A stretch of 64,000 bases of DNA from positions 1 through 64,000 of IMG/VR virus record IMGVR_UViG_3300045996_001613; one strand, given 5' to 3'. A program made the translations under genes and the position numbers. The stretch is from a virus. The notes under the pieces were generated by a model, which searched no databases, had not been told where the DNA came from, and saw nothing but the letters and a program-made list of their open reading frames with translations. Shown here piece by piece: positions 1,952 through 44,855 of this stretch (position 1 is the first letter of the stretch; each line of letters starts with the position of its first letter).

Positions 1952-2456
1952 TCAGCGCCCTCACGATCTCTTGGTTGATGTTCTCTCTCATCTCGTCACT
2001 CGCCTCACTTAATGAGTCTTGCATAACCGGATCAGGCTTCTGTCCCGGATGAGTAACGTATGGGAGTGTCATCCACCTACCCATTCTCTCCCAATAGAAC
2101 CGCATCGTGTACCCCCTGCGTGGCGCAATGACGCGCTCGGGTGGAGCCGTGTCCCATGCACCTGCCCCAAGTTGGGGAAGCACTCCGTGTTCTACCCGGC
2201 TGGCATTGGGCCTGCGGTTGAATACCGAGAAGGTTAGATCCCTATCCCGTACCCCCGAGGCCTCAAAGCCCTGCAAAGTGTGTCCGGTTCGATTGTGTCC
2301 TCGTCGGACCCAATTCTCCCTTACCCTACCTAGTAGGATAACACGATTTCGTTCCTGTGCGCGACGTATCGCGTCACGAAAGTCGGGAGTAGGTAGCTGC
2401 CTGCCGAATATGAATCGGGCCTCGGATTTCACCCGCGTTCTGCGTACAGTCGCCAT
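1941..2456 (-). CDS. HK97-gp10-like neck protein
   Basis: 171 residues. The stretch VTHPGQKPDPVM near the C terminus matches the THPG-x-KP signature of the HK97 gp10 family of head-tail joining proteins, followed by a predicted long helix with REN..QEI. The N terminus is Arg/Lys-rich. It starts one base after the previous stop (2457), so coupling is tight. It is likely a head-tail interface component. Confidence 0.7.
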   Translation of the reverse strand: MATVRRTRVKSEARFIFGRQLPTPDFRDAIRRAQERNRVILLGRVRENWVRRGHNRTGHTLQGFEASGVRDRDLTFSVFNRRPNASRVEHGVLPQLGAGAWDTAPPERVIAPRRGYTMRFYWERMGRWMTLPYVTHPGQKPDPVMQDSLSEASDEMRENINQEIVRALNGR

Positions 2457-9004: not shown

Positions 9005-10423
9005 CTAGATCCTCGCAATCAGTAGCCTGCCACTCCGCTTGCTGTTAGCTTCTTCCGCGAGTGCTCCGGCAACTACGGAGTCTGGCGTATGGTCATTGCC
9101 GTACAACATGTCGACGGTCAGATATTTGTGCTCCTCGTACATGAATTTGATGTAGGGAAACTCGTACTCCAACGCCTGACACTTGCCGACATACCTGTTG
9201 AGTAGCTTGTCCCTCCTCTTCTTGTTGCGGAAGTCCACCGGCTCCGAGTCCGTAAGCATGTAATCCTCGACCACCGACCCTATTCCGGTAACGTCGTGTG
9301 CGCTCTTTCCTCCAAACCGTTCTACCCTCTCGTCATGTTTCGCCACCATGTCCGGCCACTTGCGGCGACCGAGACGCATCCACGCGACCAGACGGTCGGG
9401 GCCTCCGCGACGGCGCTTCATCGAATGGATAACCGTCCAGTCAGAAGACTTGGCCCAATCCGTTCCGTGATAGTAGTCGTGCCCGTCGCCCATCATGGTG
9501 CCGGGTACGATGATCTCCTCGCCCTCGGCTCCTTCAAAGACTCCGAGTTCCCGTAGGAATAGTCCGGACAGGGTCTCTTCATCAAAGATCCTGCCCTCGG
9601 GATTCGGCTCTTGACCCTCGTACTCTGAGAGCCACATCGCCGCGGGAATCTCAGACTTCTTGTCCTCAACCTCCTGATCGTCCAGCCATCCACCGTTAGA
9701 CTGAAGGTTCTCCCTGTAGCACCACTCGTAGTATCCCCAACCGTTCATCTGCGCACGGCTGATAGCCTCGGTCATGGTCCCGTCTATATGCTGGTGAGTG
9801 GACGAACACACCGTCTGCGCCGGAACGTCGTTCGCGGCCATTGTCTGACCCATCGCGGAGTCGAAGATACTTTGGTCCATCTCGTCAATCTCGTCGAGCC
9901 GTAGCCTCTGAGGGTGTGGCCCACGGACAGATGTAGCAGATGCCATCAGAGCCCGAATGTACGCACCGTTGTCCAAGCGGATCTCCCTCTTGAACGATCC
10001 GAGCACCATGCTCGTCGGGGCGAACTTCGCGTCGAAGAACTTACCCTTTACTCGGGTGGAGGTACCCTGCAGATACCCCTGCACGTTCTGCGACTGCTCG
10101 CCAGATCCTCCGAGAAGGTTGATCATCGCGCCCATCGTGATCGCCTCTGTCAGGGTGAGTAGCGCGAGTAGCACTGTCTTGCCACCGAATCCTCGGGACG
10201 CTTTCCATACCGCGATGCGGTCGCGGGCGAAGTATGCATTAGCAAACGCGGTAAAGGGGGCTACGTGATGGGAGCATATCTGTTTCCGGGGTATGTCGAA
10301 TCCCAGGTATATCTCAACCCAATCATGCAGCCAGTCGTCGGTTTGGGGGCGTACGGTACGATACCGCTTAATCGCTTTCTTGCGGTCGCTCTCGTTGAGA
10401 CCCCTTAAATAGTTCTTCAGCAA
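9005..10423 (-). CDS. Terminase large subunit
   Basis: 472 residues. The N-terminal ATPase has a Walker A-like ASRGFGGKT (residues 75-83) and Walker B LRLDEID (Asp177-Glu178). The C-terminal RNase H-like nuclease shows GTDWAKSSDWTVI, HDVTGIG and HTPDSVVAGALA, supplying the acidic residues. It packages DNA through the portal. The start at 10423 overlaps the small subunit by 56 bases; an internal start is possible but less well supported. Confidence 0.93.
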   Translation of the reverse strand: MLKNYLRGLNESDRKKAIKRYRTVRPQTDDWLHDWVEIYLGFDIPRKQICSHHVAPFTAFANAYFARDRIAVWKASRGFGGKTVLLALLTLTEAITMGAMINLLGGSGEQSQNVQGYLQGTSTRVKGKFFDAKFAPTSMVLGSFKREIRLDNGAYIRALMASATSVRGPHPQRLRLDEIDEMDQSIFDSAMGQTMAANDVPAQTVCSSTHQHIDGTMTEAISRAQMNGWGYYEWCYRENLQSNGGWLDDQEVEDKKSEIPAAMWLSEYEGQEPNPEGRIFDEETLSGLFLRELGVFEGAEGEEIIVPGTMMGDGHDYYHGTDWAKSSDWTVIHSMKRRRGGPDRLVAWMRLGRRKWPDMVAKHDERVERFGGKSAHDVTGIGSVVEDYMLTDSEPVDFRNKKRRDKLLNRYVGKCQALEYEFPYIKFMYEEHKYLTVDMLYGNDHTPDSVVAGALAEEANSKRSGRLLIARI

Positions 10424-10937
10424 GTTGATCCTCTGACATCCTGTCCAACTCTTCTTCCGGGGTCTGTCCCTGCGTGTCGTCGGACAGGTGTTTGGCTATG
10501 TCGAGTTGGATACGTAGGAGGTTCGATATTCCCGCGAGGGTGATCTTGTCCGGATCGACCTCTTGCACCTTGCTCATCAGCAAGTCTAGGGTGTTCTGCA
10601 CGGTGTCGAAGTTCTCGTATAGCTGAGTACGGAGTCGTTCGATACTCATGGCCTGCCGCTTGGCCTCCTGCTTGACACCCTGCTCTATCCCCTTGCGACG
10701 CTGCGCCGAGAGATGTGTGTCAAATGCGGTGGCACGATCTACCCAATCAAATCTGCGGCTCCACGCGAGGAAGGAACTGGACGGCTTGGGGCCGGAGGCA
10801 TTTTCGTGGTGCTCCTTGTACCTAGTCCACGCATTGTCCATATTCCGGACACGCGGGTCCAACAGCATGTAGCACTCAAACGCCTTATATTGGAGGGACG
10901 ATTCGTCCTCCCGTTTATCCCATGCCTCTTTAGCCAT
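10368..10937 (-). CDS. Terminase small subunit
   Basis: 189 residues. The N-terminal part (WDKREDESSLQYKAFECYM, then SFLAWSRRFDWVDRATAFD) matches the pattern of phage small terminases of Gram-positive hosts, in which a DNA-binding domain precedes a long helix for ring formation (SIERLRTQLYENFDTVQNTL). It is the first gene of the leftward late operon, behind a promoter at 10964-10992. It should recognise the packaging site. Confidence 0.8.
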   Translation of the reverse strand: MAKEAWDKREDESSLQYKAFECYMLLDPRVRNMDNAWTRYKEHHENASGPKPSSSFLAWSRRFDWVDRATAFDTHLSAQRRKGIEQGVKQEAKRQAMSIERLRTQLYENFDTVQNTLDLLMSKVQEVDPDKITLAGISNLLRIQLDIAKHLSDDTQGQTPEEELDRMSEDQLAEELFKGSQRERPQESD

Positions 10938-23049: not shown

Positions 23050-23070
23050 CTGCCGGCACAAGCTCGAGAT

Positions 23071-23086
23071 TGTGAACGAATTCACA
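23071..23086 (+). promoter_or_regulatory. Crp-like palindrome, copy 3, with downstream promoter
   Basis: TGTGAACGAATTCACA, centre 23078.5. A -10 GATAAT at 23108-23113 predicts a start near 23120, again about -41.5. Directly upstream lies TGCCGGCACAAGCTCGAGAT, a variant of the segment at 18696. Confidence 0.7.
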
Positions 23087-23119
23087 GACAACGGTAGCCG
23101 AGTAGGAGATAATGCGGGA

Positions 23120-23486
23120 GCAATGAGAAGGACAACGACAAGGGGAGAGACATGTGAACTCAGAGGGGCGAGCCTGACGGTCCTGACCCCAACAGGCGAG
23201 ACGGTCGGAGTACCAGACCGGCGGGGATGTGGGCGCGAGCCCGTGCATGAAAGAGAGCACACCCAGCGAGGGCCGCTGGTAAGGAGGCTCACATCCCCTG
23301 ATGGCGAGGCAGATACGGGCGCAGTGGTGCGAACGGCTCATGGGGCTGATCACCCCGGCAAGCCTAGTAGCACGGTGAAAATCCCACGGCTAACTGCCGT
23401 GCCGATGGCGACAATGGGGCTGATCACCCCGGAGTCGACCGGGAAAGCTGCGCCGGTATCTGCCCCGACCACGAATGGAGGAGCAC
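23120..23486 (+). ncRNA. Structured non-coding leader or RNA gene
   Basis: About 370 bases with no supported gene (a long open frame here lacks a ribosome site and codon bias). It contains a four-way junction: GGGGATGT (23223-23230) pairs with ACATCCCC (23291-23298), enclosing GGGC-GCGA-GCCC with a GNRA loop (23231-23242), GTGC/GCAC (23243-23260) and CCAGCG/CGCTGG (23263-23279). Further hairpins are GCACGG/CCGTGC (23370-23402) and two copies of a GGGG..CCCC element. It begins at the predicted start of the Crp-site promoter and leads into the 60-residue gene. Confidence 0.6.
23340..23432 (+). repeat. 19-bp direct repeat, each copy a small hairpin
   Basis: ATGGGGCTGATCACCCCGG occurs exactly at 23340-23358 and 23414-23432, 74 bases apart. 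GGGG and CCCC can pair around CTGATCA. The GCACGG/CCGTGC hairpin lies between the two copies. Confidence 0.8.
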
Positions 23487-23669
23487 ATGAGACCGCCAGC
23501 ACGACATACGGTGGACGGGGTGCACAAGCGCACCGGGATGATAGTCACGGTGAAGCTGGGCTTCGCCTCTCACCGGGATGCGCACAACTACATAACCAAG
23601 CACCTGACCGAACTGCACGTCAGGGGAATAGACCCGGTGCACGTCGGGACGGACAGGACGGGCGCGTAA
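23487..23669 (+). CDS. Hypothetical 60-residue protein in the RNA locus
   Basis: AATGGAGGAGCAC precedes ATG 23487. KRTGMIVTVKLGFASHRDAH, then NYITKHLTELHVRGIDPVHV looks like a small beta-alpha-beta fold. Its last ten bases overlap the 5' end of the tmRNA-like element, so the RNA 5' end must be processed or the gene is dispensable. Function unknown. Confidence 0.55.
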   Translation: MRPPARHTVDGVHKRTGMIVTVKLGFASHRDAHNYITKHLTELHVRGIDPVHVGTDRTGA

Positions 23670-23738
23670 TGGGTTCGACGGGTGCAACGGGCGCGAGCGC
23701 CCAACACCCGGAGGAGAGTTCGATTCTCTCCGCGTCCA
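23660..23738 (+). ncRNA. tmRNA-like RNA lacking the mRNA domain
   Basis: Acceptor GGGCGCG (23660-23666) pairs with CGCGTCC (23731-23737) in 7 bp with a G3:U70 wobble, followed by A73 and CTA in place of CCA. The 5' side then reads GGGTTCGACGGG, the conserved D-region sequence of tmRNAs. The T-arm is GAGAG-TTCGATT-CTCTC. Where tmRNA has a long mRNA domain, there is only GGGTG/CACCC closing a GGGCG-CGAG-CGCCC hairpin; no tag frame fits. G3:U70 is the identity element for alanyl-tRNA synthetase. No SmpB gene was seen. Confidence 0.75.
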
Positions 23739-23746
23739 CTACGAGT

Positions 23747-23867
23747 CCCGGCATGGTACGGGAGAGACACGCTGAAACACCACGCACGGCCACTGCGGTA
23801 GTCATGACCCGCATGCTTTCAAAGTGTCTCTGGTTGAATATACGCGACTCTCCCACACCATGCCGGG
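23747..23867 (+). ncRNA. Long imperfect hairpin after the tmRNA-like RNA
   Basis: CCCGGCATGGT (23747-23757) pairs with ACCATGCCGGG (23857-23867), then a 2x2 internal loop, then GGGAGAG (23760-23766) with CTCTCCC (23848-23854). Inside, AGAGACAC and GTGTCTCT offer a competing pairing. It may be a processing signal, a terminator or part of the same RNA. It overlaps no supported gene. Confidence 0.6.
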
Positions 23868-23904
23868 GCTCGGCTGTAGTCAACACCGACCGGGAGGTCT
23901 GACC

Positions 23905-43448: not shown

Positions 43449-44855
43449 TTGGCGTATAAGGCGATCATAGCGCGAGTCTACACCCGTCCACACCCCAACG
43501 CGGATCGCATCCAGCTTGGGGAGTGCCGCGGCTATCAGGTAATCGTGGGCAAGGATGTAGAGGACGGGACCCTCGGAGTCCTGTTCCCTCCGGACGGTCA
43601 GTTGTCCCACGAGTTCTGCCTTGCGAATGAATTGTATGCAAGGCACCCCGAGACCGGGGAGAAGATGAAGGGGTTCTTTGACAAGAACCGTAGGGTCAGG
43701 GCTCAGAAGTTTCGCGGAGAGAAGTCAGAGGCGTTCTGGACGGGTCTGGAGAGCATTTACAAGATGGCGGGACTGCGGGACTGGCGGAAGGATCTACCCG
43801 AGGGCAAGGAACTCGACGAGTACCTTGGCATGTCCCTATGTCAGAAGTACGTCACCCCCGCGACGCGCAGGGCTCAGGCCAACAAACAGCAGGCGGCTCG
43901 ACGTGAGCTACCGAATTTCCACAAGCACTTCGACACGGATCAGTTGAAGAGGGAGATAGACTACATACCCGAGGGGGCGTTGCTGTACTTCACGGAGAAG
44001 TTACATGGCACGTCTCAGCGCAGCGCATACCTCACGGTCGAGTCTGACCACAAGCTGCCGTGGTTGCAGAGGCTCGGGTTGTGGTTGAGCCGCATTCCTT
44101 TTGCACCCCCAACGCAAGACGAACACCTGCTAGGCACGCGCAACGTAGTCCTCGGTCGGTACGAGGGCAAGAGCTACTACGGATCTGAGGGGTTTCGGTA
44201 TCGGCACCATGACCGCATTAAGGACAAGCTGCACCTTGGAGAGACGGTGTACTACGAGGTTGTCGGGTTTACCGGGCCTATCTCAGGAGTGCCCGAAGAC
44301 CCCTTCCGGGCGTGGGACGCGAACGTCGCGCCGATCATGCCCGCGGTCAGCACCAAGGCGCTAAGAGACCATTGGGTGTCTTCTCCTGATCAGAAGGTTG
44401 CCGAAAGCGTCAAGGGCCGGTTTCCCGAGATGTACGGCGACACTATGTGGTACACGTACGGCAATTGGGAAGCGGACAGTCCTGCAGCCCCTCGTGCGAT
44501 GGGTGGATCGGAGATCTACGTCTACCGCATCACGCAGCAGAATGCGCAGGGCATCGTGCTCGACCTATCGTGGGAACAGGTGAAGGGACGGTGCGAGGAG
44601 TTGGGCGTCCCGCATGTGCCAGAACTGGCGGCACACAAGCACCACTGGAGAACGGAAGCCCTTATGGAACATGCGGAACAACTGGCCGAGGGACCCTCGA
44701 CACTCGACAGGACTCACATACGCGAAGGCGTATGTGTCCGTTGGGAGAAGGGAAAGAAGATAGGTATACTAAAGCACAAGTCATTCGAGTTTCTAGTGCT
44801 GGAGGGCGTGGTGAAGACCGACGAGAACTATGTAGACTTGGAGGAATCCTCGTGA
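43449..44855 (+). CDS. RNA ligase with N-terminal tRNA-binding-like OB domain
   Basis: 468 residues from TTG 43449. Residues 1-60 (KAIIARVYTRPHPNADRIQL; YQVIVGKDVEDGTLGVLFPP) resemble the EMAP/tRNA-binding OB fold. The nucleotidyltransferase core has motif I FTEKLHGTSQRS with Lys184, then VLGRYEGKSY, TVYYEVVGFTG and EGVCVRWEKGKKIGILKHKS (motif V). This layout matches Deinococcus DraRnl/Rnl5-type ligases. It may reseal tRNAs cut by host anticodon nucleases; the phage also carries its own tRNAs. No polynucleotide kinase was found. The start codon and weak ribosome site suggest low expression. Confidence 0.85.
   Translation: MAYKAIIARVYTRPHPNADRIQLGECRGYQVIVGKDVEDGTLGVLFPPDGQLSHEFCLANELYARHPETGEKMKGFFDKNRRVRAQKFRGEKSEAFWTGLESIYKMAGLRDWRKDLPEGKELDEYLGMSLCQKYVTPATRRAQANKQQAARRELPNFHKHFDTDQLKREIDYIPEGALLYFTEKLHGTSQRSAYLTVESDHKLPWLQRLGLWLSRIPFAPPTQDEHLLGTRNVVLGRYEGKSYYGSEGFRYRHHDRIKDKLHLGETVYYEVVGFTGPISGVPEDPFRAWDANVAPIMPAVSTKALRDHWVSSPDQKVAESVKGRFPEMYGDTMWYTYGNWEADSPAAPRAMGGSEIYVYRITQQNAQGIVLDLSWEQVKGRCEELGVPHVPELAAHKHHWRTEALMEHAEQLAEGPSTLDRTHIREGVCVRWEKGKKIGILKHKSFEFLVLEGVVKTDENYVDLEESS

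Follow-up and report, generated by a model that had tools for sequence, protein, structure and literature searches.

Phage-encoded RNAs reduced to the tRNA-like domain of tmRNA recur as a short size class and may act as decoys in host ribosome rescue

An 82-base RNA at 23660-23741 (+) in phage DNA has the tRNA-like domain (TLD) of a tmRNA with a shortened helix 2 and without the mRNA domain, a description well supported by its fold and family assignment. The DNA analysed, here called the window, comprises positions 1 to 64,000 of IMG/VR record IMGVR_UViG_3300045996_001613. Mycobacterium phage DS6A, the sole phage known to carry a TLD-only tmRNA, could pass for a curiosity, but the form now recurs in dozens of phage contigs. 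We see about an even chance that these RNAs constitute a widespread, largely unannotated phage class, selected for alanylation and SmpB binding, that silences or co-opts host ribosome rescue, and that trans-translation is a recurrent phage target.

The locus reads, in order, GGGCGCG-TAATGGG-TTCGAC-GGGTGCAACGGGCGCGAGCGCCCAACACCC-GGA-G-GAGAGTTCGATTCTCTC-CGCGTCC-A-CTA. The acceptor has 7 bp (GGGCGCG/CGCGTCC) and includes G3:U70, the alanine identity pair; the D-region sequence is GGGTTCGACGGG, and helix 2 (CGGGTG/CACCCG) encloses a GGGCG-CGAG-CGCCC hairpin. A73, at 23738, is followed by CTA (23739-23741), so that the gene has no encoded CCA, which would be added by the host. The 7-bp acceptor with G3:U70, A73, the D-region, the T-arm and the capped stem had all been placed here by a first-pass annotation, and each is confirmed in the sequence. 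The parts are as follows, the first G of GGA (23710) doubling as the closing base of helix 2:

23660..23738 (+), mature mini-tmRNA body, 79 nt (RF00023, 55.7 bits; leave-one-out model R2, 70.9 bits; fold)
23660..23666 (+), acceptor stem 5' strand GGGCGCG, including G3 (sequence; pairs invariant or covarying in 58 relatives)
23667..23678 (+), reduced, stemless D-loop TAATGGGTTCGA, with the putative U17 and G19 equivalents of the SmpB site (sequence; contacts from PMC8363625, mapped by counting)
23679..23684 (+), helix 2 5' strand CGGGTG (fold; covariation)
23689..23702 (+), inner hairpin GGGCG-CGAG-CGCCC, in place of the tag and pseudoknot domain (sequence, fold)
23705..23710 (+), helix 2 3' strand CACCCG (fold; covariation)
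23710..23712 (+), GGA motif, its A putatively corresponding to A334 of the SmpB pocket in E. coli tmRNA (conservation; PMC8363625)
23714..23730 (+), T-arm GAGAG-TTCGATT-CTCTC with a 5-bp stem (sequence; covariation)
23731..23738 (+), acceptor stem 3' strand CGCGTCC (U70) and discriminator A73 (sequence; conservation in relatives)

A permissive Rfam scan of 601 bases revealed that the tmRNA family RF00023 matches 23660-23741 end to end, with 55.7 bits (E 3.5e-21; curated cut-off, 47 bits) and with the entire pseudoknot and tag (mRNA) domain deleted from the alignment. The insert of about 30 nt between the helix 2 strands and the closing motif leaves no room for a tag frame or a pseudoknot ring; both the ring and a tag frame with its stop are absent. 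With model R2, a covariance model built on 20 other phage mini-tmRNAs and not on the window, the RNA reaches 70.9 bits (E 3.5e-18); under this model, no tested mini-tmRNA of 65-88 nt falls below 51 bits and no tRNA exceeds 31. The minimum-energy fold (z -2.75) contains the acceptor, helix 2 with its inner hairpin and the T-arm, while the D-stem and anticodon arm of tRNAs (RF00005) are absent. The earlier reading of the locus, a tmRNA TLD that carries the alanine identity pair but lacks an mRNA domain, therefore stands, the covariance models scoring it as tmRNA and not as tRNA or random sequence. A whole-window cmscan with fast filters missed the RNA, ARAGORN made no call at it, and there is no second RF00023 match in the 83.6-kb (83,577-base) virus record. 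A pseudoknot between the D-loop and the insert (GGTTT with AAACC) found no support, own-sequence complementarity being 5.02 versus 4.96 for swapped inserts. The AAA.CC motif is enriched in mini-tmRNA inserts (29/52, versus 2.7 in shuffles).

The neighbouring genes are those of a tailed phage, encoding a portal, a major head protein, a prohead protease, a tail tube, a DnaB helicase, an RNA ligase and two DNA methyltransferases. The RNA ligase gene (phrog_968) lies at 43449-44855 (+), and Streptomyces phages with mini-tmRNAs also have an RNA ligase near tRNA genes. Directly 3' of the mini-tmRNA there is a highly stable hairpin of some 130 nt (23742-23872, +; dG -64.3 kcal/mol, z -4.9), for which the whole-window scan with fast filters returned no Rfam family at its cut-off. 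Upstream, some 430 nt (23050-23480, +) without a convincing gene contain two copies of GGGGCTGATCACCCC and a GCACGG/GCCGTGC stem, and are possibly a further structured RNA. In the phage collection, the region had no near-identical DNA relatives and a distant search setting gave short chance matches only; likewise, the exact long pattern of the window RNA had no match in IMG/VR.

A related phage (contig 3300045996_002301, here L003), with 80% identity in the neighbouring methyltransferase and 65% in the portal protein, carries a 134-nt tmRNA-like version at 10387-10520 (+). Its acceptor, including G3:U70, is the same as that of the window RNA, the CCA is encoded and the helix 2 insert is longer. 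Four of the five pairs of its T-stem (CCCGG/CCGGG) are changed on both sides with respect to the window, and the structure is kept; these are the compensatory stem changes that the first-pass annotation had named as a test in homologous phages. Since R2 gives this RNA only 31 bits, aligned over the 3' part, its membership is based on RF00023 and on the shared genes. The insert contains GCA GCG TAA (Ala-Ala-stop), which could be a minimal tag or chance; two-residue Ala-Ala tags are reported in some bacterial tmRNAs (PMC11915505). Additionally, GACCCCAACAGGCGA is common to window positions 23186-23200 and to L003 near 10620.

Pattern scans of IMG/VR showed how far the form extends. A first pattern (TTCGACNGG, gap 16-76, GTTCGANTC, TCCA), which imposes U70, C71, C72 and A73, matched 87 contigs. 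The collection came to 58 distinct sequences that measure 65-88 nt and have all seven acceptor pairs, nearly all from IMG/VR and including the window and one bacterial MAG contig; a few further full-acceptor RNAs have 108-121 nt. A gap of 78-138 returned just five full-acceptor contigs (126-140 nt), and a gap of 286-346, the range of ordinary tmRNAs, more than 120 matches, not checked singly; these counts indicate that the short form is a separate size class. Scanning by exact pattern makes the class look smaller than it is and constrains its D- and T-loop sequences, and the relatives are mostly metagenome contigs of unknown host. The RF00023 cut-off was exceeded in 43/50 class records, with one strong match per record. 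ARAGORN called no mini-tmRNA in the loci scanned, so that these genes go unannotated. Four phage RNAs of 126-140 nt, in L242 (1623-1762, +), L247 (11474-11613, -), L246 (4715-4853, -) and L254 (10684-10809, +), have tmRNA ends and a mid-sized insert, and score 57-64 bits with model R1. The isolated, sequenced phages found with mini-tmRNAs, all of them unannotated, are:

Streptomyces phage LuckySocke, 17977-18057
Streptomyces phage pSt2308, 33356-33436
Streptomyces phage BRock, 97140-97220, minus strand
Streptomyces phage GiJojo, 17025-17104, found by BLAST only
Stenotrophomonas phage Jojan60, 37722-37804, minus strand

In bacterial and archaeal assemblies (one genome per species), three of the 120 matches listed had all seven acceptor pairs: a Prochlorococcus single-cell contig (viral in IMG/VR), a tRNA-crowded Bacillota MAG contig and a weak Oscillibacter case. 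The last one, at 2280-2400 (-) of the Oscillibacter valericigenes Sjm18-20 chromosome record (L164), is a 121-nt tmRNA-like RNA with a full acceptor and G3:U70, weak under model R1 (31 bits), which could be in a prophage. Most matches from bacterial genomes were rejected as mini-tmRNAs; among those checked, two are 3' ends of full-length tmRNAs and one is a tRNA. We also discarded cyanophages S-CRM01 (L223, 1999-2200) and S-CAM1 (L228, 1989-2100), where the 3' half precedes the 5' half and the BLAST matches, read by eye, are apparently unannotated permuted (two-piece) tmRNA genes; mycobacteriophages Validus and Milly, in which a tmRNA-like 3' end stands alone ahead of the integrase gene, probably attP; and the crAss-like cr50_1, with an annotated full-length (496-nt) tmRNA. 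Gordonia phage GMA2 is convincing for the 3' half only.

Sequence variation among the 58 RNAs is unevenly distributed: G1-C72, G2-C71, G3:U70 and A73 are invariant (58/58), acceptor pairs 4-7 and the T-stem show many pair types with zero mismatches, and the helix 2 strands of each RNA pair far better than swapped ones do. In an alignment of 18 sequences, 319/319 base-pair cells are paired and the covariation score is 0.757 (shuffles, 0.176; slid registers, no higher than 0.13), with compensatory change in all three helices; the acceptor pair count is partly built in because a full acceptor was a selection criterion, of which helix 2 and most of the T-stem are free. A second scan, with U70, C71, C72 and A73 replaced by GGA in the pattern, matched 79 contigs and added one full-acceptor RNA, which looks like an ordinary tRNA. 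Left free in this way, U70 and A73 were lacking in no mini-tmRNA, indicating that alanine identity is a property of the class. GGA occurs in 56/58 RNAs, and its A in 58/58; free in the first scan, it was present in 72/74 full-acceptor viral matches. The E. coli tmRNA accommodates SmpB Trp122 in a pocket made of A15, U17 and A334, and its G19 is strongly conserved (PMC8363625). By counting, the equivalents of U17 and G19 would be in TTCGAC, and that of A334 would be the A of GGA; the putative U17 and G19 equivalents are kept in L003 (GTTGAC) and BRock (TTTTGAC), both found outside the TTCGAC pattern. That the bases for alanine identity and the SmpB site are fixed while the stems drift by compensatory change points to a selected function.

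As to this function, we rate somewhat above even the probability that the mini-tmRNA is an alanylated TLD decoy, occupying host SmpB, EF-Tu or stalled ribosomes and dampening trans-translation. The sequence, fold, homology and conservation of the RNA are shown here; we infer that it would be transcribed in the window phage, charged and bound by SmpB, with an effect on the host. Trimming and CCA addition would fall to host enzymes, and charging through G3:U70 and A73 to host AlaRS; host SmpB would then bind its elbow and EF-Tu would deliver it to stalled ribosomes. With no template to offer, the RNA could neither tag nor terminate, and so would compete with the host's own tmRNA for SmpB, for EF-Tu and for stalled ribosomes, reducing trans-translation during infection. 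No SmpB gene was found in the 50 class records searched, many of them fragments; given also the one strong RF00023 match in each, host SmpB is presumably used. The decoy reading draws on two published results: a crystal structure shows SmpB, EF-Tu and a stalled ribosome bound by a tmRNA fragment that lacks the mRNA domain (PMC3968760, PMC8363625), and, according to PMC4131195 and PMC11915505, a DS6A-like TLD molecule strongly inhibits tmRNA in E. coli, chargeable or not, perhaps via SmpB titration. Because this inhibition is independent of charging, SmpB titration alone leaves the invariant alanine identity unexplained; this identity fits a decoy reaching stalled ribosomes as an EF-Tu complex, or a tag-free rescue.

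In tag-free rescue, which we regard as possible if rather unlikely, the charged mini-tmRNA with SmpB would take the nascent chain on non-stop ribosomes and free both without a degradation tag, aided by host factors such as peptidyl-tRNA hydrolase, ArfA/ArfB or RQC and sparing phage proteins from proteolysis. This resembles the role proposed for organellar tmRNAs without a CDS, whose mitochondrial members persist alongside SmpB and have a presumed role in dealing with incomplete mRNAs (PMC11915505), and the invariant G3:U70 and A73 imply that charging matters, for which pure SmpB titration has no need. Nevertheless, the mini-tmRNA has no template or stop codon, and the sole published test of the kind (PMC4131195, PMC11915505) gave tmRNA inhibition.

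The other readings have little standing. The first-pass annotation had offered a decoy or a relic, and the decoy is the best explanation; a functionless, decaying relic of a full-length tmRNA, suggested by the loss of the mRNA domain, is very improbable given the strong compensatory evolution among the 58 sequences, with perfect pairing in the 18 aligned ones and invariant identity bases, and the wide recurrence as a separate size class. There is only a very slim chance that the RNA is half of a split tmRNA with the tag domain on another RNA: the strong hairpin at 23742-23872 directly follows it (z -4.9), but the single RF00023 match runs end to end with a hairpin of its own to close it, the other members of the class are complete in themselves and, by eye, the same hairpin sequence is not seen in L003. 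The ssrA gene is a frequent integration site for phages and islands, and the tmRNA-like 3' ends of Validus and Milly lie beside an integrase; still, an attP site with a piece of a host tmRNA gene is hardly credible here, as both halves are present, joined by a capped helix, and no tyrosine integrase or serine recombinase domain was found in the 83.6-kb record, which may be incomplete. We give equally little credence to an ordinary but odd tRNA: the ends are tRNA-like and a good part of the class lies in or beside tRNA arrays, whereas the D-stem and anticodon arm are missing, ARAGORN is silent and R2 separates mini-tmRNAs from tRNAs.

The recurrence suggests that phages repeatedly interfere with or re-use trans-translation, the main bacterial ribosome-rescue pathway. 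The isolated carriers LuckySocke, BRock and Jojan60 make the function directly testable, and a natural alanyl-TLD would be a clean reagent for the fate of a stalled ribosome given a template-less tmRNA.

The first-pass annotation knew of no tag-less tmRNA in phages; in this it was mistaken, since the tmRNA of Mycobacterium phage DS6A (tmID 11587) is listed as "TLD only" (Mao et al., 2009, cited in PMC4131195 and PMC11915505). Judged by its description in PMC4131195, it and the window RNA are both phage-encoded tmRNAs with little more than the TLD. The 2025 tmRNA database contains 79 phage tmRNAs and names DS6A for its TLD-only form; its main protocol takes ARAGORN and BLAST matches, rejects truncated forms and requires three CCA positions (PMC11915505), which may be the reason why the class went unseen. 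A literature search omitting most subscription journals found no paper describing the class. Bacterial tmRNA (RF00023) shares with the window RNA the acceptor with G3:U70, A73, the stemless D-loop, the T-arm, the start of helix 2 and GGA, but has pseudoknots and a tag frame in 230-400 nt, whereas the window RNA has neither in 82 nt. The CDS-less tmRNAs of plastids (Mallomonadaceae, ~65 bp) and mitochondria (jakobids, oomycetes) also lack the tag frame, although they are organellar and work with a nucleus-encoded SmpB, the mitochondrial ones being usually permuted (PMC11915505). The TLD fragment with SmpB and EF-Tu on the Thermus ribosome (PDB 4ABR/4ABS, PMC3968760) shows that the mRNA domain is dispensable for binding, but it is an artificial truncation, whereas the window RNA is a natural gene. 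Thus, a TLD-only phage tmRNA was already known from DS6A; what is new is how widely the class occurs, together with its invariant alanine identity and SmpB site.
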